A stretch of DNA of 64,000 nt from Apostichopus japonicus (taxonomy: Eukaryota; Echinodermata; Holothuroidea; Aspidochirotida; Stichopodidae), in assembly GCF_037975245.1 (NCBI RefSeq), contig NC_092568.1, positions 2,108,001 through 2,172,000 of the forward strand. The letters run 5' to 3'. Positions 11,284 through 47,200 of the stretch are shown piece by piece. Numbering within the stretch: the first letter of the stretch is position 1; each line of letters starts with the position of its first letter. The translations under genes were made by a program, and so were the position numbers. The notes beneath the pieces were generated by a model. That model made no database searches. It was not told the DNA's origin and was given only the letters and a program-made list of their open reading frames with translations.

Positions 11284-14200
11284 CTGTTATTAGGAAAAGA
11301 TTAATATGGATAACATTTCCAAGGTTGAGAAACCCAGTCGATGCTGGGGAAGGGTAGAGGAGGGGAAAATGGGATAAGGAGAAATTTTCTGTACTTAAGA
11401 GAGAGAAACCTCTTTTCTTTAGGGGAGGTGGGGGGGGGGAGAGCATTGAGTATAGCAAAAAGTAGGAAATATATTCCCGAATTACCCAGTCATCAAATTT
11501 TCTGAGAAACGTTTCATTTTTCAATATTCTACAGCAAATGTATGCGAGCATAAGTCTTTATGCTACCCAAAGAAGTTTTGCTCGCTTTTTCAATGAATTG
11601 GGAAGACGATGTTGATGCACCTCTAGAGATGATAGACCCCTACAATTCCTCGGCAAAGGAGTAAGAAGTTAAGAAACCACATGATTGATTGCATCATTGA
11701 CCTGAAGCAGACATCAAAGTCACGGCTAAGATTTTGAACGAGATTATTTACTTCACTTGTAATTGAGAGAACTGTTATCAAACCCAGATGAGGGATCGGT
11801 GACCATGTAATAAACTGAAATTACGTCAAATCCCATGCAGAGGGAGACGAGAGGAGCAGTTGCCGAGAAATGACGACACCAATTTTTTTAGAAAACTTGA
11901 GAGCTCATTGGTAAATTAAAAGGAGCTTCATATCTCCATTCAAAAGGCTCAGTGATTGGAGAAGGTTCCAGCTAACATGGAATTGTATCAGTAGCCTCCA
12001 AAACAATGATTCTTCAAGATTTTACTCTTAGGCACAAAATCCTTCTTTTAATATTTTGTAAACTGGACAAAATTGCGACTCTCAGTGCATGTTGTATTCC
12101 TACATCGTTTTCTCATTTTTACCAAAATGATCCATTCAACATCTGAGGCTCATCAATGAAAACAAGGTCCATTAGGTCAGTTGTTTAGATACAAAAACAC
12201 AATAGGGAATATAAGCAGGGGTGTAGCGAGGTTTTTTTGTTGGGGGGGTGTGGAGAATTTGATTTGCCGACGGATCTGGAAGTGGTGACTGAAATGCGGG
12301 AGGGGTCTAAGGGTAGGGGGTGTCCCCCTCCCCTTTGGCAATTTTTTAGTTTTGAAACGTCCTTAGATGCAATCTGGTGCATATTTTAAGTCAAATTTGA
12401 TTTGCCGACGAATCTGGAAGTGGTGACTGAAATGAGGGAGGGGTCTAAGGGGAGGGGGTGTCCCCCTCCCCTTTGGCAATTTTTTAGTTTTGAAACGTCC
12501 TTAGATGCAATCTGGTGCATATTTTAAGTCAAATTTGATTTGCCGACGGATCTGGAAGTGGTGACTGAAATGAGGGAGGGGTCTAAGGGGAGGGGGTGTC
12601 CCCCTCCCCTTTGGCAATTTTTTAGTTTTGAAACGTCCTTAGATGCAATCTGGTGCATATTTTAAGTCAAATTTGATTTGCCGACGGATCTGGAAGTGGT
12701 GACTGAAATGGGGGAGGGGTCTAAGGGTAGGGGGTCTACCCCTCCCTTTTGGAAAAATTAGTTTGAACGTCCTTAGATGCAATCTGGTGCATATTTTAAG
12801 TCAAATTTGGCACGGAAGAAGCTCCCGTTCTCCTTTTTGTATTCAGCTTTCCTTCTTTCTTCCCCTTTCGCTCTCTTCACCTTTTCTCCTTTTGCCGACA
12901 GACCCAAAATTTGCCGACAGCGACCAAATTATTGGGGGGGTGTGACACCCCCCCACACCCCCCCGCTCGCTACGCCCCTGAATATAAGTACAATTTCATG
13001 GCCTCAAATTAATTGTCATTTAAGGATAAACGGTGTTGAATGTCATCCCAGGTGCTTGTTATTTCAATAATAATAATAAAAATCATTATAATAATAATAA
13101 TAATATAAATATAAATAATAATAATAATAATAATTTTATAATAAAACAAAGTCTTAACCACTTAGGAGCAAAGGAACACTTGGTACATTTTATGTCTTGA
13201 TAACGGTAACAGTTACCGAAACATTACTTTCATAAGGCAGGTTTTGTTTGTCAATGATATATAAGACTAGAGCTCCTCCTTTCAGACTTTGTTTTACAGT
13301 TTGAGTTCATTAATCACGTGGGTTACTTCACAAGCACATCTAGCTTCTTAAACAGATACATACCTTGCAACCTTTGAATAAATCTTTTTCCCTGTTTGTG
13401 CAATCCCTCGAAGTCTGGAACACATGGAGGGCAGACTTGGCAGCTATTCAAAGGAGAAAAGTGATACTACATATGGCTTCCTTTGTCATATATCAACAAC
13501 AAAAACAGACCTGCCAAATCCTAAAGGCAACCATTTAAAACAACTGCTACCATGTTACACTTATAACTGTCAACATCTTTATCTCTTCCCTCCTTTTTTT
13601 TTTGGCGGGGGGGGGGTTATGGGGTTGGGATGAAAAAGTGTAAAATTTCCTATGTTTGTGCAGGACAGGTGAGCTGGTTTGCAAAAACCAAAACAAGAAT
13701 AACAACAGCATTTCCACTATCCTCACCAACACTACAGCAGAAATACAACAACATCAGAAAAGTAAAGAAAGTAAAGAACATCGAATATGCAGAATCACAG
13801 AGAGCAAGGAAGGGATGCCCTTTAAAAAAGCTTCTTTTTTTTTTAGGGGGGGGGAAACAATTAAATTCCATCTAAGTTATCTTTGCTTTTTAATAATCTA
13901 CTGAGGCATGCTTGAGCATTTCTTAAGTTGTCTACTTGAACTTACCACGCCCTTTTTTCCCAGTACCTGGAGTCACTTTCACCTTGTACCTTGAAGAAAC
14001 GTCAAAAATGAGAACCAAGTTAAAACAAACGCGACCGACAGTGTAAGTAACAAAATGCACTTCATAAAAATTTGCACTATTGTTATGAAACGTTACTATG
14101 ACGATATTCCCAACGTTTAAAATTTATTATTAAAAATTAGATACAATAAGTTGTCAATTAAACATCAGAAAATTGTTCAATTGCTCAGTTAAAGCAAATG

Positions 14201-17200
14201 AGCAATCCAACATTTTCCTGACTTTTGATAAGATGTTATCTTGTTATCTAAACAATTTACTGAAAAATGTCAATGGGCAAAGTTTTTCTTATGTTGATGG
14301 CACTTTTAAGCTTCCGTAGTTCCCAGCAAAAGAAGAATATATACTAAGCATCCTGGTCAAATTTGCAGGCAATACTAACACATTATGATTCAAGATTACT
14401 GACAGTTGAATTTGAAGGGAACAGGTGTGGTGTCATAGTTGCACATTGAGGAGCGGAATGTTGGGTTTTCTCTCACGGTTTTCAATTTAATATTTTGACC
14501 TTGGATGAGATAGGGTTCAAATTTGATTGAGGGGATGTGAAACCATCGATATCTTAACCACTGCAGTGTATTCATATGTTAATGCATTTGGATTTTGAAC
14601 CAGAAAAATTTCATCGACATTTCGAAGAAAATCATGAAACAAATATTCCAGAGTGCACCTGTTTGCTCAACGTTCCCCTTTGGTACACCGCATGTCAACT
14701 TCAAATGTATTATCTCGTAAACGAGATACAGAAATTGGATACAAATTTCACCAATCGTCATCAGTCAAAACTATATATTCCTCTGGACTACCCTTTCCAT
14801 TTCAAACTGTGTCACCCTGAAGTCAAGCTATATCTTGCACCTTATCATATTCCACCTTCCTTCCTAATAGTAAGCCCTCCTTCCCTAAGCAAGAATATAG
14901 AACCCCTCCCATGTATTCTTGGCCATACTGTTTCTATATATGGCAATTGTGTGCATGAGAAAAAAAATCCATAACACTCCATCTCCCCCTGTCCCTGTGT
15001 CCCCTCCCCATGACCTAATAAAAATTTAATTCTGTCTAATAAGGAGGTGAGAATCCAGCAAAATCTCTTTAGACTGCTCAGTACAATTACTTAAATTTTG
15101 CCTTGCACTGTATGGCACGCAAACTGGCACAGCAAAATCTCTTTAGACTGCTTGATACTCTTACTTATAATTTTGCCTTGCACTGTATGGCACATAAACT
15201 GGCACAGCAAAATCCCTTTAGACTGCTTGGCACACTTACTTATAACTTTGCATTGCACTGTATGGCACGCAAACTGGCACAGCAAAATCTCTTTCGACTG
15301 CTTGGCACACTTACTTGTAATTTTGCATTGCACTGTATGGCGCACAAACTGGCACAGCGAATAAAAGGAAATCCTCCTCGTGCGGACAACCAGTCAAGGA
15401 ATCGACAATCGATGAACTCTCCTATGTAAAACGGGCAGAAATATATAAACAAGTCACATACCATTGTTTGGCTGCCTTACGGTGTTAGGTAGACGTTTAT
15501 AGACACCTATGTATGAAATACGTGATGATATCGGCAGTAAAATGTCTGTTGGAACTGAAAAGTAACTGATCATTACTTGAAACTCTAGCATATTTGTCCT
15601 CATTTTGTTTACCTTTACCTCATCCCACGCCCCCCCATATAGCTTATCCCGGTAGCCTACCCTCCCTCCTTACACGATCCCCTCCCCTTAAACTGCAGAC
15701 ATGAAAACACTGTGTTCTCTCAAGAATCTAACAACACATCGCAAGGATGAGAAATATCAAAACAATGACACTCGTGTCAATATGTTTGGGTGGAAATATT
15801 TTCCATCATGTTAAGAATGATTCTAGTCACAGTTTTATGGAGGAAGTGTCCGACATTCTCACATATTCAAATAATCCAATCCCTAACTGGAACAAGCTAA
15901 TGAGTTTGAAGACTAGGCGACTGTCATGAGAAAACTCAATACCAAGTTCTAGCCTCCTCCTCCTATAAATATAACTCAAAATGCAGCTTTTCACAACTAC
16001 CTAATTCCCGGTCATAAGGTTATATCTTACAGAGTGATGTATGAACTTGTTACCCACATTGAGATTAATAGTAGATTGACCCCTTACATCACATTTAAAA
16101 AAAAAAAAAAAAAAAAATCGGGTAGAATTGAAAAAAAGAGTTAAAGGAAACCTAGTCGAATGGGAAAATTGGTTAACTACAGAATTCAAATTTTTGATAT
16201 ATAAATTGCAAGATTCCTGTGCTACCCCTGGTCTATGAATCCATACATGGATGAAACCAGGAAAAATCAATTTCAGCCAACAAAATGAGCATAGATGAGG
16301 GAGCAACTAATGATCAGCTTCTTCCTAAGTAACACCCCCCCCCCACTCCCCTCCTCGCAAAGAAAAGCCTGGTTCCTCTCTACAAGGTATGCATATCAGT
16401 TGTCATCTCAAATCCCACTGAAAAATACAATTTTTCCCAGCACCAATAGAATGTGGAATTTTACACTTTGTATTGTTTATCTGTGGAAATCTCCATGGTG
16501 ATACTAGTGGTGGCTGTTACTGAAACCAATGTTAGTAACATCTGATATTGTTAGAAACATTTAAAACTTTTTAACAAATAGTGTTGAAAGTATCACATGT
16601 AACCCCAAATTAGTTAATTTGAGTATTACTGAAGTAAGGAAATTAATGCTAAAGAAACCAGTCCAAAATTCAAACATCGGGTAATTATCTGTGATGTCAT
16701 TACTAGATTTGCTTTTATTTTTTCACATACTGCCTGTACAATAAACACATGGAAGTTCTGGTATCTCAAAAAAATTGTTTTAAGCTTTTTCAGCACATAT
16801 TTTATCCGTGGTTTATATATCTTTTTAATCAAACATACCCAACTGTGAATGGCTAAAGGTTACAGAACACTTACCAATTGATTAATAGCAGTAACCATGA
16901 AAGGATGGTCATGGGGTGAAATTGTTTTTGACATATTCTTAGCATCCTGGTGAAATTTTCCCTCAATCTTTTTATCCTGCTTTTGTGGCTCAATAATTTG
17001 AATTTTTTCATATTTTGTACCAAACATGAACTGGAGACAAACGGGTGTAATGTCATAGCTGCACATTAACATTAATTCCCCCCTCCCTCCTCCCCTTTTA
17101 TGTTACATTAAAATGAGTCAGTGTGTTTGGAAGTAGAAAATTGGATGCAAATATTGAACGAAAAAAACAAAACAAAAACATTGTGCATCTGTGCCATACC

Positions 17201-29200: not shown

Positions 29201-32200
29201 TAAGATAGTTTGTAAATTACTATATAGCTTGCAGTCTGTGTTATATTTCAAGACTAACTAGACCTTGCAAAAAACCTGATTTAAAACTTACATAAAAATC
29301 ATAAAGTCATCCATAATACACATATTTGCCAAGTCCAGTTTATTGGGTGGGTGACCAATACGAGGACTACAAGAGCTCTGGTAACGTAAATGACTACTCT
29401 AAAAAAGGGAGGGACTAGATTATCTTACCTCTAATCATAAAACTACCAGTGGATAGGTATTCCCCTGTTGGAGCAGTTTTAGAAACCTACAAGAAAAATA
29501 AATCAACGGTCAATAAGAGAAGGATTCTCTCAATTTGATGGGATCCAGACTTTAGTTTCTATGAAACCATCATCATTTTCCGACTTTTCTTTACAAACAC
29601 ATCCACTCACAAGACACCGAATTTGCATCTTGTTGTTAAATTCAGGGGTGGATCCAGGGCGTTGAGATTGAGGGGATGTCGCTGTTGGGTTGTTGAAGTG
29701 GACTCCCACGAAGGGCTTCGTTTTAGTGGTCATCTTGGAGAAATTTACATTTTTGACTTTAAAATTGAGGCAATTCAGAGGTGTATTTTACACTATAAAT
29801 TAAGTCTATAATTATGTCTAAATGTACTATATTGCTAATGACTAATCACGCTCTGTTATTTAAAGGCACTGACTTCACATCATACTCATTTATTTGCCAA
29901 TATTAACTATACAATCAGCCAACAGGGACTTACTACACATCACAATGTGTCTTTTACAAACTGCATCAGGTTTTGTTTTTTTCTAATACCAGATGAGTAT
30001 TCATCCCCCAGGTACTTGTTATCACCTATTTCTCCCATGAGACACTAAAGCAAACCCACCATACGTAATCCCATTACCCGGTATTAGTAACTTACCTGAT
30101 CTGCATTCACCCACCAGGTACTTCCTATCACCTATTTCTCCCATGAAACACTAAAGCAAACCCAACATATGTAATCCCATTACCCAGTATTAGTAGCTTA
30201 CCTGATCTGCATTCACCCACCAGGTACTTGTTATCACCTATTTCTCCCATGAGACACTAAAGCAAACCCACCATATGTAATCCCATTACCCGGTATTAGT
30301 AACTTACCTGATCTGCATTCACCCACCAGGTACTTCCTATCACCTATTTCTCCCATGAAACACTAAAGCAAACCCAACATATGTAATCCCATTACCCAGT
30401 ATTAGTAGCTTACCTGATCTGCATTCACCCACCAGGCACTTTTTATCACCTATTTCTCCCATGATATGCTACACAAACCCACCATATGTAATCCCATTAC
30501 CCGGTATAAGTAACTTACCTGATCCACATTCACCTACCAGGCACTTGTTATTTCTCCCATGAAACACTAAAGGTAACCCACCATATGTAATCCCATTACC
30601 CGGTATAAGTAACTTAGCTGATCTGCATTCACCCACCAGGTACTTGTTATCACCTATTTTTCCCATGAAACACTAAAGCAAACCCAACATATGTAATCCC
30701 ATTACCCAGTATTAGTAGCTTACCTGATCTGCATTCACCCACCAGGCACTTTTTATCACCTATTTCTCCCATGATATGCTACACAAACCCACCATATGTA
30801 ATCCCATTACCCGGTATAAGTAACTTACCTGATCCACATTCACCTACCAGGCACTTGTTATTTCTCCCATGAAACACTAAAGGTAACCCACCATATGTAA
30901 TCCCATTACCCGGTATTAGTAACTTAGCTGATCTGCATTCACCCACCAGGTACTTGTTATCACCTATTTCTCCCATGAAACACTAAAGCAAACCCACCAT
31001 ATGTAATCCCATTAGCCAGTATAAGTAGCTTACCTGATCTGCATTCACCCACCAGGTACTTGTTATCACCTATTTCTCTCACGAAACACTAAAGCAAACC
31101 CACCATATGTAATCCCATTACCCAGTATTAGTAGCTTACCTGATCTGCATTCATCCACCAGGCACTTGTTATCACCTATTTCTCCCATGAAACACTAAAG
31201 CAAACCCACCGTATGTAATCCCATTACCCAGTATTAGTAGCTTACCTGATCTGCATTCACCCACCAGGCACTTGTTATCACCTCTTTCTCCCATGAAACA
31301 CTAAAGCAAACGCACCGTATGTAATCCCATTACCCAGTATTAGTAGCTTACCTGATCTGCATTCACCCACCAGGCACTTGTTATAACTTTGGCCTCCCAA
31401 GCAACACTAAAACAGACGGCCATAGCACCAGCTTCATTCAGTGTTTTTGGAGGGATGGGTCCACCTAAAAAGAGGTCAATAAACTTGGCACATGATTCAA
31501 GCTGACACTCTTGTGCAGTAACCTGTTTTGTTGTTTCTAAGTTTTGCACAAATTTGACAAAACTATATCTAAAATATAAAATCACTTGAATATATAAAAA
31601 TAGATAAATTGAACGTTTTGACTCTCATAAATATAAAGAAATAAACAGTTAATAAATAATACTTGGCCTCACCTGTATGATTTTTAATGATCACACTACT
31701 GGCTCCGTGGAGGTCGGCATGAACATAAATGTCTCCTATTAAAAAAGACCAAAAGAAACAACATTGAATGTCGTTCCTTACACTAAAATATAATATTTTC
31801 TGGTGATGTCTTCCTTCTGATTTGCCTCTTGAAAGTTAATGTATTACAATTCTTCCTTTTTACCATGTGATAATAATTCCTGCCATTTATGAAAATAAAA
31901 GTTTGTCAAAAAATAAACAACTTCTTTGCTGCGATAAATAATTAGATATTATTATGATTATGATGATTATACAGAATATCGTTATTATTGTTATTTTTAT
32001 TTTGCACCTAAAAGATATCTTTTATAAATTCTTACCTTGTAGAGATGTGTAAGACTTATGTTTAAATGTTTGATTAAATTTGTTATTCATTAGTCTGTTT
32101 CCATGGCGCCCTGACATCTGACTAGAAATATATATATGTTATACTCTACACTCACCTGGCCTCAGATATCTCTTGTAGACAATTTCATTCTGTTGTTTGT

Positions 32201-35200: not shown

Positions 35201-38200
35201 TTAGGCAGGCAGTAGGCTCAAGTGGTTCAAACTTACACAAACTTCTTGATTCATAGAATTACTTTCATTACAGACTGTTTAATCCAAATCCTAGCGAATT
35301 TGAGACTAACATGTTTGTCGACATAATCACTGATTAACAAAACAGATTAAGTGGTTAACAATTGCACAAATTGAACAACTGGTTTGGAAATCAGAATCAT
35401 CTGAAAATTGACATATTTTTCTGTGTCATAGAAACACAAAATTAATCATCACTTGAATGATATTCAAATAAATAATGCAGTTTTCTATGCAACTCACTGT
35501 AACATAAGGGTCATGTGGTTCATCTCAAGCTTCAACGATTTAACCGCCTTAGCAACCAAATCTCCTTGCTTCTGCGCATCTTTGATAATCTCATCGATTT
35601 CCTTCCAATCGATCTGATTGGCTATTGCACTACGGACCACCCGTATTGCTTCATCAACCTGGAAGACAAAAAGTAACAGAAGGAAATTTCATAACTTCTT
35701 GAAATTTAAAAGGAAAGTAAAGGTTACCGTATTCTCAGAACAAGTGCCCACTCCATTCTCTCTTAGGGAAATTTTTTAACTTGATCAACATTACTTGCTT
35801 GAGTACATAGTTTAATTTAGGCTACATGGGATGAATTCTAAGAAATCTTGGAGAACAATAGGTCAGACAAGAGGGTGTGTTTCTATGATTAAAGGTTGGT
35901 GTGTCCAAGGACTCAGTTTCTTCTCACTTTCAATGATTGTAGAAACCATAATTACGACTAGCAATGGATTAACTTCTGATGTCTGATGTGAGGTCTGATG
36001 TGAGGTCAGATGAGAGGTCTGATGTTAGGTCTGATGAGTGGTCTGATATAAGGTCTGATAAGAGGTCTGATGAGGTCTGATGTGGGGTCTGATGAGAAGT
36101 CTGATGTGAGGTCTGATGAGAGGTCTGATGAGTGGTCTGATGAGAGGTCTGATGAGAGGTCTGATGAGAGGTCTGATGTGAGGTCTGATGTGAGGTCTGA
36201 TAAGAGGTCTGATGAGGCCTGATGTGGGGTCTGATGAGAGGTCTGATGAGTGGTCTGATGAGAAGTCTGATGTGAGGTCTGATGAGAGGTCTGATGATTG
36301 GTCTGATGAGAGGTCTGATGAGAAGTCTGATGAGTGGTCTGATGAGAGGTCTGACTAGCAGTCTGATGGGAGTCTCATGGGGTCTGATGAGAGGTCTGAT
36401 GAGTGGTCTGATGATTGGTCTGATGAGAGGTCTGATGATTGGTCTGATGAGAGGTCTGATGAGTGGTCTGATAAGAGGTCTGACTAGAGGTCTGACTAGC
36501 GGTCTGATGGGAGTCTCATGGGGTCTGATGAGAGGTCTGATGAGAGGTCTGATGAGAGGTCTGATGAGAGGTCTGATGTGAGGTCTGATGGGAAGTCTGC
36601 TTAGATGAGAGGTCTGATGAGAGGTGTGATGTGTAGTCTGATGTGAGGTCTGATGAGAGGGCTCATGAGAAGTGACCACTGTTTGACTGCATAGCATATT
36701 TATGATAATTCAGATGATCTTTATTAAAGCCAACATTATAACTATAAATACCACTCATTTATGTTTAGCTTAAATCTCACCAGTGGAAGATTCATTTCAA
36801 TGAGCTCCCCTTTCAAATGGTCTGCAGTCTACAAAAGAAGAGAGTTAAAGTAATTAAAGTGAATGTTTCGAAGAATGATGTCTATACTTACTCTTCATGT
36901 ATGGTTTTTAGTAGTATAATGTGAATACTTACTCTTCATGTATGTCATTTAGTAGTATAAGATTCATACTTACTCTTCACATATATCATTTAGTAGTATA
37001 AGATTCATACTTACCTCTTCATGTATGTCATTTAGTAGTATAAGATCCATACTTACTCTTTATTTATGTCATTAATAGTATACAAATAATAAATGGTTAT
37101 GAATGCAATAGTGCAAATATTTCATGAGTTGAAAGATGGAATGTTCCATTCAAGGAGGCGCAGCCGAGTTGAATGGAACAAATTACATCTTTCAACAAAT
37201 GAAATATTTGCACTATTGCACGAATGGAAACCATTCATTATTTGTTTTATACAACACCTTTGGATGTAAAATGCACTCATGCAACAGACTGTTTTGAACA
37301 AACAGGTTTCTCTGCTCTTTACCATTGAAAAAAGTGCTATCAAAAAAGTATAACACATGGTTCTTTTTCATAGGGTGCAATAGAGCGGATTTTGCACACA
37401 ATCGACGAGCAATTGACCAATCAAATGGCCGGAATATAATTAGGTGTTGTATAATATGAGATCCATACTTTCTCTTCATGTATTTCAATTAGTAGTATAA
37501 GATCAATACTTACTCTTCATGTATGTCATTTAGTAGTATAAGATCCATACTTACCCCTTCATGTATGTCATTTAGTAGTATAAGATCCATACTTACCCCT
37601 TCATGTATGTCATTTAGTAGTATAAGATCCATACTTTCTCTTCATGTATTTCAATTAGTAGTATAAGATCAATACTTACTCTTCATGTATGTCATTTAGT
37701 AGTATAAGATCCATACTTACTCTTCATGTATGTCATTTAGTAGTATAATGTGAATACTTACTCTTCAATAGTATGATGTGTATACTTACTTGAGACTGTT
37801 GAAGTGAGTTGATTCTCCTTTCCTGATCCTTCTTAACATTATCAAGTTTCTTCAGCACATCTTTTTCCTGTCATGAGTGAAAGAGTGAGGTTTGGGTGAA
37901 AAAATAACATCTCCTTTAAGAGTGGCCAGATTGACGAACAAATGCACACACTAATTTCTTTATCCAACAAAATATCACATTCTACAAACAATCATGTTTT
38001 CTAAGCAGTGTGAACAAAGGACAATATCTCTTTCTGTTGACTTATTGATTTATTCAAGAGCATCAGTGATGTCAATGCGTTATGTGGATATGAACAAGGA
38101 ATTTGATAAAACAATGCACTGTCCAGTATTTCTCAACCAAACGATAAAAACAAACACAGAAGGGGTTGTTTTAAATCATTTAATAAAAACATGTCAACAA

Positions 38201-44200: not shown

Positions 44201-47200
44201 TTGTGGTAGTCTGGGGCTCCTTGTGATACTGTTAATCAGTGAGAAAACTTCTCAACTAAGTTTAGTATCTTTTAATTATAAAGTTACATGAAAAGGATAT
44301 CATTTTGAACGAAACAGATACTTTACTAATTATTTTATTACATTGGCAATGATTCTGAATGCCAGGAAGACACCGGGGTGGACCCCCTTATTTATGGATT
44401 CACCTATCTACAAACATGTTTTTAATTGCTTTCCAATATAATTCAAGCAAATATCTAACAAGTTTCCCATTGAACTCATAGTTAAAATGACATGTAGGTC
44501 TGTGAAAATTGTGTAGAGCATCTGACATTATGATAAAATACTTAACAATTCAACGACTTAAGATAACTTACCCAGTTAATCTGATTAGATAAGTCTTGTT
44601 GTTTATGTCATAGATGTTTGCAACCCTCAAACCCAGGAGCCTGTGAAAAAAATTAATGTATTAAATGTGTTCATACTATCTATTCACATATTTAACATTA
44701 AAGTCATATCACTACCATTGATGTTCTTGGTTTCATACTCACAGATTAAATGACCTACCAATTTGTCTTACAAAAATTAGGGAGATTTATAATTTTTCAT
44801 CCCCCAAAATTGGGCAATAAGGGAAAATGTACTGAGAATTGGGTAAATATCCAACTAAAACAAGATAGCGATATAAATATTAGCATAGAAAGTTAGAAAC
44901 ACTTAAGGCTATGCAAAAGTAATTGTTGAACTAGTGTTGTCCATGCAGAATATATACAGTACTGATTTCGCTTAACTCCCGTTAAAATTCGTTAAAAGGA
45001 AAATAACCGAATTTCCACGTTTTGTCATCGAAATTCCCCGATTTTTATCGAAATTCCACGAATTTTAACGATTGGTTATTTCGGTCATTTCCTTCGTGGA
45101 ATTTTCAACGATACGTTGAAATTCTTTTTTAAACGAAATAGAAGGTCAATGTGTGGTTACGAGAAACGTCGGAAAACGAGCAACTTCGATTATTAGTATT
45201 GATTAGACTTTGGAACAGTCGTTTGAAGGCAGGAATTTTCTCAAGAACATTCCTGTACTTACTGAGTAGTGACACTCAAAGAAACATGTAGTGAAACTGA
45301 CGGGGGACGTTTTCTAACTGTGAACCCCAAACACAGTGACATAAGTCTTAACTTCGCCAGGTCGTAAGAGAGGTTGCAGTCAAAGCTATGTACCACGAGG
45401 CACCCTTCCAGATAAATTATGAGTGCTGTTTAACCATTTAAATAACAATGAATGGACATATAAACTTGGTTTACTTGCAGATTACGAAACATAGTTATTT
45501 TTTAGAGATGTAAATTGGTTTTTTATTAGAGTTGGAGTATGAAACTTTGTTTCTGCGCGAAAACATGTAACTTGAAGCAAAATAAAGATGCCCCGCCCAT
45601 TCTGCGAGGACGCTTCCATTTTTCGAAAAGGCGTTTTCTCTTTTTATTTTTTCTATTTTGTTTACTTTTAAACATGAAAATTATTTTAAAATATGTAAAG
45701 AACTTAGTAATGTACTGCAAACTATCTATAAAAACAAAAAAACGATGTTTTAGGCATGAATAATGTGTTTAATATAACTAAAGTAGTAGGCCAATCGTCA
45801 TGAGCTCATGATGATAGTGTCGTCAATTCGTTTTCTCAGTTTATATTTGCGACATATCACCCGTGTACATCGATCAATGGCATGGTGAAAACCCCGTGTG
45901 AAAATATGTTGACCTCAAAAGACGCAAATGGCCGTTCTAGAAAGTACCGTCATAACATTAACAACACAAGGCCAGTTTGCTCTCTCAGGTCCGCACGTGT
46001 ACAGCCATTTTTTCACACATGATATTATGCTGTGCATGCATTGCGGGCGCGATTGCGGCAAACATAAAAGAAAATGAATGAAACTGAAAAACTTACGATA
46101 TTTTTTCACAAATATTGATGCTTAGATAAGTGCTTCCTCACAATCAACGAGCCGCCCTAAAATTCGCTCCGCTTACGGAAAAACTTCTATATATATAACA
46201 AATGGAAAAACCCGAGTTTTTACACACATAATTCCAACTGACATTGGTCACAGAACATAAGTAGGTCATTGACATTCGAACTTGGCAACTTGCCCAAGTT
46301 CATCGCACCATGGGAACGACACAACACATTGAACATGATGTTATATTCTCCCGCCATCTGGACGCCGAGTGTAATATGCAAATTATGAATGGTACTGCGC
46401 AGCGTGGTTAAATCTTAACATATTGCGACACAAATTTTTGGAAGCTGTTGTTTGAAGTAACTTTTGTATCAAATGTAAGGTACTGTATCATGTATGTGAC
46501 CAGGGGCGTAGCGAAGGTTTTTTGTGTTGTTGGGGGGTTGTGGAGAATTTGATTTGCCGACGGATCTGGAAGTGGTGACTGAAATAGGGGAGGGGTCTAA
46601 GGGGAGGGGGTGTCCCCCTCCCCTTTGGAAAATTTTTAGTTTTGAAACGTCCTTAGATGCAATCTGGTGCATATTTTAAGTCAAATTTGACTTGCCGACG
46701 GATCTGGAAGTGGTGACTGAAATGGGGGAGGGGTCTTAGGGGAGGGGGACGGCGGGAAACGGCGTTTAAACGTTTAACCGACCGGCAGGGGATACGGTGA
46801 AACGGTTAGCGAAATATCTGATAGGTCACACCCTTATTTAAACACACACAACAAAACGCCCTTATTCAATGAAAATATACTGAAAACCATATCGCAAAAA
46901 CACAAAATCGCTTATAACTCGAAAACGGAAGGAGACATCGACTTTTGTCGGCTGTATAGGGATTTCCTAAACCGAATTTTGATGCGCTCTATCCACCTGT
47001 GTCATTTATGAGCTTCTCTGACGTAAGCTGCAGTAAGTAATTTCTCTGTACCAGTTCCGCGAAATTTATTTACGCAGTAAACATCGTTCATTATGTTTTC
47101 TTTCACAACGAATATTCAAAGTTGTGCTCCACACGCTTCACAGATATTGTTTTATGTCGTTCATTTTCAATTCTACTTTAAAATTACATTTTCGAACGAT

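Follow-up and report, generated by a model that had tools for sequence, protein, structure and literature searches.

The NEMF gene and its tandem arrays

The window, by which we mean the whole 64-kb stretch of DNA analysed, carries the NEMF gene on its reverse strand, with exon matches running from 49589 down to 11212. Exons were mapped with what we take to be the human NEMF sequence, residues 561-640 of which agree with PDB chain 9gy4_Z. The peptide of exons 18-20 matches the NEMF chain 9gy4_Z as well (E = 1.5e-38), and exon 19 is therefore a genuine NEMF exon. A match to PF05670 (NFACT-R) at 31346-31492 takes in exon 19. NFACT-R is presumably an RNA-binding domain, and the description of this exon in an earlier note as part of a conserved catalytic domain has to be withdrawn. 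The features around exon 19 are the following:

31352..31464, reverse strand: NEMF exon 19, founder of the array (9gy4_Z match of exons 18-20, PF05670 match and boundaries)
31346..31351, reverse strand: authentic 5' splice site of exon 19, GTAAGC (donor spacing and matrix scores)
29999..31384, reverse strand: 106-bp tandem array with 13 donor positions, made of an exon-like tail of at most 67 nt, a donor and the intron start (TRF, spacings and homology)
29429..29486, reverse strand: NEMF exon 20, its acceptor being the top-scoring AG of intron 19 (12.7)

The 106-bp array is real. TRF reports it at 29999-31384 with a period of 106, 13.2 copies, 89% matches and a score of 2198, and also gives an overlapping row of 310 bp. 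Its donor positions run from 31351, the true end of exon 19, to about 29999, at spacings of 106 (8 of 12), 105 (two) or 99 (two). GTAAG stands at 11 of the 13 positions (the authentic donor and ten extra ones) and CTAAG at the other two, 30927 and 30617. The earlier note had recognised an amplified exon-intron boundary of NEMF, which is borne out: exon 19 tail, donor and intron start recur in tandem with a period of 106, the array begins with the end of a coding exon, and each further copy holds an exon end and a donor, decayed in two of the 13. Its count of 13 units holds for donor positions but includes the authentic donor, so that there are 12 downstream copies, ten of them with an intact GT. 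Homology with the exon 19 tail extends over as much as 67 nt. The first copy keeps the last 33 nt of that tail identically. Mean mutual identity of the units is 92%, against 73-86% with the exon 19 tail, and no copy of the unit was found elsewhere in the genome, all four matches among the best-scoring candidates lying at the NEMF locus. Units 8-10 repeat units 5-7 with 97-100% identity, and a recent duplication of three units was thus one step in the growth of the array; in this one assembly, the near-identical blocks suggest a recent change of copy number.

Five TRF rows in NEMF have a period of at least 25 and at least 2.5 copies, and four of these belong to three arrays, each starting at a genuine donor, with units of 106, 75 and 41 bp. 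Apart from the array at exon 19, these comprise:

15315..15421, reverse strand: NEMF exon (human residues about 978-1010, from exon mapping), founder of the 75-bp array
15056..15358, reverse strand: 75-bp array, 4.1 copies, with about 44 nt of exon tail, a GTAAGT-type donor and the intron start
37455..37789, reverse strand: 41-bp array, first block, starting at the authentic donor 37789 (exon end 37790)
36884..37082, reverse strand: 41-bp repeat, second block, with five GTAAGTAT positions, about 370 bp from the first

In the 75-bp array, the authentic donor (15314) scores 9.9. In the 41-bp array, the first block has nine positions, seven reading GTAAGTAT and two GAAAGTAT, and no exon-side homology was found. 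Between the two blocks (37083-37454) lies a 39-nt inverted repeat (37104-37142 and 37182-37220, 92% complementary), and the segment seems to be a foldback element that has broken up one 41-bp array. The fifth row, an array of 138 bp at 12256-12809, has no donor motif; its unit resembles 46512-46676 by eye and is probably a dispersed repeat. By coordinates, none of the five rows reaches a mapped acceptor. Additionally, a NEMF intron holds a 12-bp array at 35981-36670, with about 58 copies of GTCTGATGAGAG.

Minisatellites are common in this genome (11 arrays in 200 kb), and the 106-bp array is best explained, with a probability of roughly 0.74, as a minisatellite founded by duplication across the exon 19 5' splice site, neutral and tolerated since the first donor works. 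Specifically, a tandem duplication of a segment crossing the exon 19/intron 19 boundary would have founded it, and single-unit duplications together with one block of three would then have enlarged it. A duplication just 3' of the donor leaves the exon intact, and would have been tolerated for that reason. Counting for this reading are the decay within the array (two of 13 donors, four of 13 TACTAAT motifs), the three-unit duplication, the weak copied acceptors, the stops in the inner splicing products and the absence of visible constraint on the copied GT. Three arrays at donors in one gene count against it, as do the copied donors that outscore the authentic one.

Donor-bearing arrays elsewhere in the genome

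The genome (671,581,487 bases in 35 contigs) was searched for three AGGTRAG at spacings of 39-69 bp, and among the matches listed this pattern gave 13 regions on C1 between 1 and 12.88 Mb (14 if two blocks at 4.70 Mb are separate). Together with nine arrays from a stricter search with CAGGTRAGT (100 of 130 matches), 22 arrays were examined. Six start at exons with a database match, three at plausible and two at weak exons, and for 11 no founding exon was found:

L029: Kri1_C, 4.8e-28; 27 donors at 54 bp, array at the exon end
L034: Saf4_Yju2, 2.8e-12; array at the exon end
L048: zf-C2H2, 2.1e-6; array at the exon end
L043: USP6NL, 9e-7; array at the exon end
L032: ATP13A2, 1.3e-6 (Pfam only 0.049); array at the exon end
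L040: C1:9594700-9595900, P-loop exon, AAA_5, 5.9e-5; array at the exon end, from locus position 534
L031, L035, L045: open frame behind a plausible acceptor, without database match, where the arrays start
L036, L039: weak cases of a founding exon, with no Pfam match

The L031 exon is one that we take to be VPS39-like. L028 and L042 have an exon-like stretch some 100-200 nt upstream, which is not the founder of the array. Some of these loci have features of their own. L040 is a 28-bp array with about 18 further donor-like positions alternating between GTAAG and GTAGG. L045 (C2:23926400-23927600, reverse strand) has 51-bp units with no in-frame stop in the 246 nt that follow the putative exon end, and its array could extend a protein by 17-residue repeats. 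L047 (C6:2576500-2577600) and L049 (C10:17513900-17515000) have 50-bp units that are almost the same, as well as similar flanks, and probably represent a dispersed element, part of which is tandem.

Such recurrence raises the possibility that arrays form preferentially at 5' splice sites, by a mutational preference beyond random seeding and tolerance, an explanation that we regard as doubtful. The three donor arrays within NEMF speak for it. So do the 13 regions with the donor pattern against four with the reversed motif in the same part of C1 (listed matches; binomial p = 0.049), and against the control density of 18 regions in 50.4 Mb of C1 and C2 (listed matches; Poisson P = 0.001), but this reversed motif is the single control. 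An acceptor pattern (TTTNCAGG) at like spacing gave 26 regions among 100 of 361 matches; for 17 of them 371 nt at the 3' edge were taken, nine being left out as dispersed families, one tRNA-like family and others. Six of the 17 stretches still end in repeats, and of the 11 in which the edge was reached, a single one terminates at a genuine exon start. This is L054 (C4:12138700-12139070, reverse strand), where copies of an acceptor and exon start precede a Patched exon (7.5e-30). Arrays at an exon edge thus number 9/22 for donors and 1/11 for acceptors (Fisher p = 0.109), or 11/22 against 1/11 with the weak cases (p = 0.027), which also favours a preference, but with homology-supported cases only the figures are 6/22 and 1/11 (p = 0.378), so that polarity is not established, and the two motifs differ in sensitivity. 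AGGTRAG fits 4 of 25 NEMF donors. Some polarity is moreover predicted by tolerance alone.

Raw match counts against the reversed motif fail to separate donors from acceptors: AGGTRAG gave 4238 vs 2432 (1.74x), the strict CAGGTRAGT 130 vs 113 (1.15x), TTTNCAGG 361 vs 596 (0.61x) and TTNNCAGG, with palindromic families among its listed matches, 3903 vs 2587 (1.51x). They were discarded as evidence of donor enrichment genome-wide, since a small number of long arrays, along with dispersed families, account for most of them.

A sample of 200 kb from 20 loci held the 11 arrays mentioned above (period of at least 25, at least 2.5 copies). Two of them carry a donor-like motif in their units, neither of these was seen at an exon, and not one of the 11 was seen at a donor, which also weighs against a preference for donors. 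Given this frequency, unit lengths of 50-100 bp and one donor per 1-1.5 kb of gene, a rough estimate would put chance overlaps with donors in the hundreds genome-wide, and random seeding with tolerance can then explain the class of arrays. For NEMF itself, three donor-starting arrays compare with a rough expectation below one, an excess that is partly post hoc because the window was picked for such an array.

Splice signals and coding effect of the copies

Donor and acceptor weight matrices were built from NEMF itself, with 23 donors in the donor matrix. The ten downstream donors with an intact GT reach 9.8 or 12.2, compared with 3.4-11.5 for the 23 matrix donors, and four of the copies (12.2) outscore the authentic exon 19 donor (9.8). 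By contrast, AG is retained in 13/13 units, but these pseudo-acceptors score from -4.7 to 2.3 against 5.1-16.6 for 25 genuine NEMF acceptors, all 13 being weaker than the weakest of these, whereas the authentic acceptor at 29486 is the best of 122 AGs in intron 19. Judged by these scores, the array repeats good donors and no good acceptors, and the earlier claim that all splicing signals are repeated in series can be kept for the donors only.

Splicing would then join the first donor, 31351, to 29486, the only good acceptor, and the ten further GT donors would be passengers giving at most rare transcripts with early stops. Since four copies outscore the authentic donor and folding gives it no advantage, use of the first donor would depend on position alone. 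In folding, no accessibility advantage was found for the authentic donor over the copied ones, and RNA accessibility is thus unsupported as the reason why the first donor wins. As a separate observation, the intact donors (31349-31376 and copies) can pair with UGCCUG/UACCUG about 20 nt upstream in the exon tail, in a hairpin of about -9 to -12 kcal/mol.

The copied donors may leak into splicing. One could go further and regard them as alternative 5' splice sites, whose early stops would lead to nonsense-mediated decay so that copy number tunes NEMF output. The strength of the copied donors and the folding result are in keeping with this proposal, as is the stop met in the fourth codon when exon 19 is extended to any of the 12 downstream donors. 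Two of the donors have decayed, though, and the copied GT is under no visible constraint: in 11 arrays, off-majority bases number 8/210 at the GT of downstream copies and 268/5022 elsewhere (Fisher p = 0.43), in a sample biased towards conservation, as eight of the 11 arrays had been picked for intact donors. These arrays are the three of NEMF and eight others (without L040), and the comparison takes in only part of some arrays: the copies within the fetched stretches, and for NEMF two downstream copies in the 75-bp array and block one of the 41-bp array. Selection on the copied donors was thus not seen. Use of the second donor has no consistent effect either, a stop coming first in six arrays and none before the second donor in five, so the 11 arrays share no common logic of poison or extension. 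Altogether, tuning by copied donors seems to us quite unlikely.

The earlier note had parsed each unit as a 51-nt mini-intron with a TACTAAT followed by a pseudo-exon, and had named these decoy exons. Decoy exons linked to intron retention are intronic pseudo-exons with strong donors; strong donors are common to them and to the NEMF units, but the NEMF acceptors are too weak and the copies repeat the end of a real exon. According to such a proposal, 55-nt pseudo-exons recognised at both ends would hold back or poison intron 19. The array has twelve complete pseudo-exons (ten of 55 nt and two of 48 nt), each of which would bring a stop, and joining one to three of them between exons 19 and 20 gives a stop in 298/298 combinations. 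Every product tested has a stop, and coding use of the array was rejected. The AG present in all units also fits poison exons. By matrix score, however, the pseudo-exons have no usable acceptor. The mini-intron spacing is 51 nt in 11 of 13 units and 50 nt in two, and TACTAAT is retained in nine of 13, reading TACTTAT in four, only about 10 nt from the donor. A 51-nt intron with a branch point so placed is unlikely, because the NEMF introns found measure at least 133 nt (a figure unaffected by the few computed lengths in which missed acceptors pair a donor with the wrong exon). The decoy reading is thus only half supported: the intact donors are strong, but the acceptors are weak, the mini-intron is far too short for this gene, and every inclusion tested carries a stop. 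We consider it very improbable. Finally, an assembly artefact is hardly credible: substitutions and indels distinguish the copies, the array measures 1.4 kb, and the assembly, provided that it is that of A. japonicus, comes from PacBio HiFi long reads (PMC10344927).

Known systems and significance

Under the minisatellite reading, the closest known case to the NEMF array is the 31-bp VNTR of human CBS, c.1444_1467+7(16_21), with a polymorphic copy number of 16-21 (PMC2630376). By its coordinates, the CBS unit takes 24 nt from the exon end and 7 nt from the intron start, with the boundary in each copy as in NEMF, whereas the NEMF units are longer, the copies fewer, and besides the three arrays of this gene there are more in the genome. 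The same paper describes CBS 844_845ins68, a duplicated intron 7/exon 8 junction of which the spliceosome strongly favours one copy (PMC2630376). Like the NEMF array it is a local duplication of a splice junction; unlike it, it is a single duplication, at the other intron end, and the more distal copy is favoured. In intron gain by tandem duplication, a duplication across a splice signal supplies the new splice sites (PMC4974935). There the new intron is spliced out and the protein is preserved, while each inner product tested in NEMF has a stop and none of them was open. A search of titles and abstract openings, covering few subscription papers, found nothing on the NEMF array or on the genome-wide class. 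What seems to be new is that such arrays recur within one gene and across one genome.

In its strongest form, the proposal would be of a widespread class of arrays born preferentially at 5' splice sites, with near-identical donors behind one exon, whose varying copy number sets the share of unproductive transcripts, making them heritable dials on gene output; we would give this a small chance. If it were true, the arrays would be natural experiments on how the spliceosome settles on the first among many equal donors. A lone array is a curiosity for which a human precedent exists, whereas recurrent arrays are ready-made test cases, for instance the 27 donors behind the KRI1-like exon of L029. 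Such arrays could bear on donor choice, whether by position, strength or exon definition, and on how often duplication makes usable splice sites.
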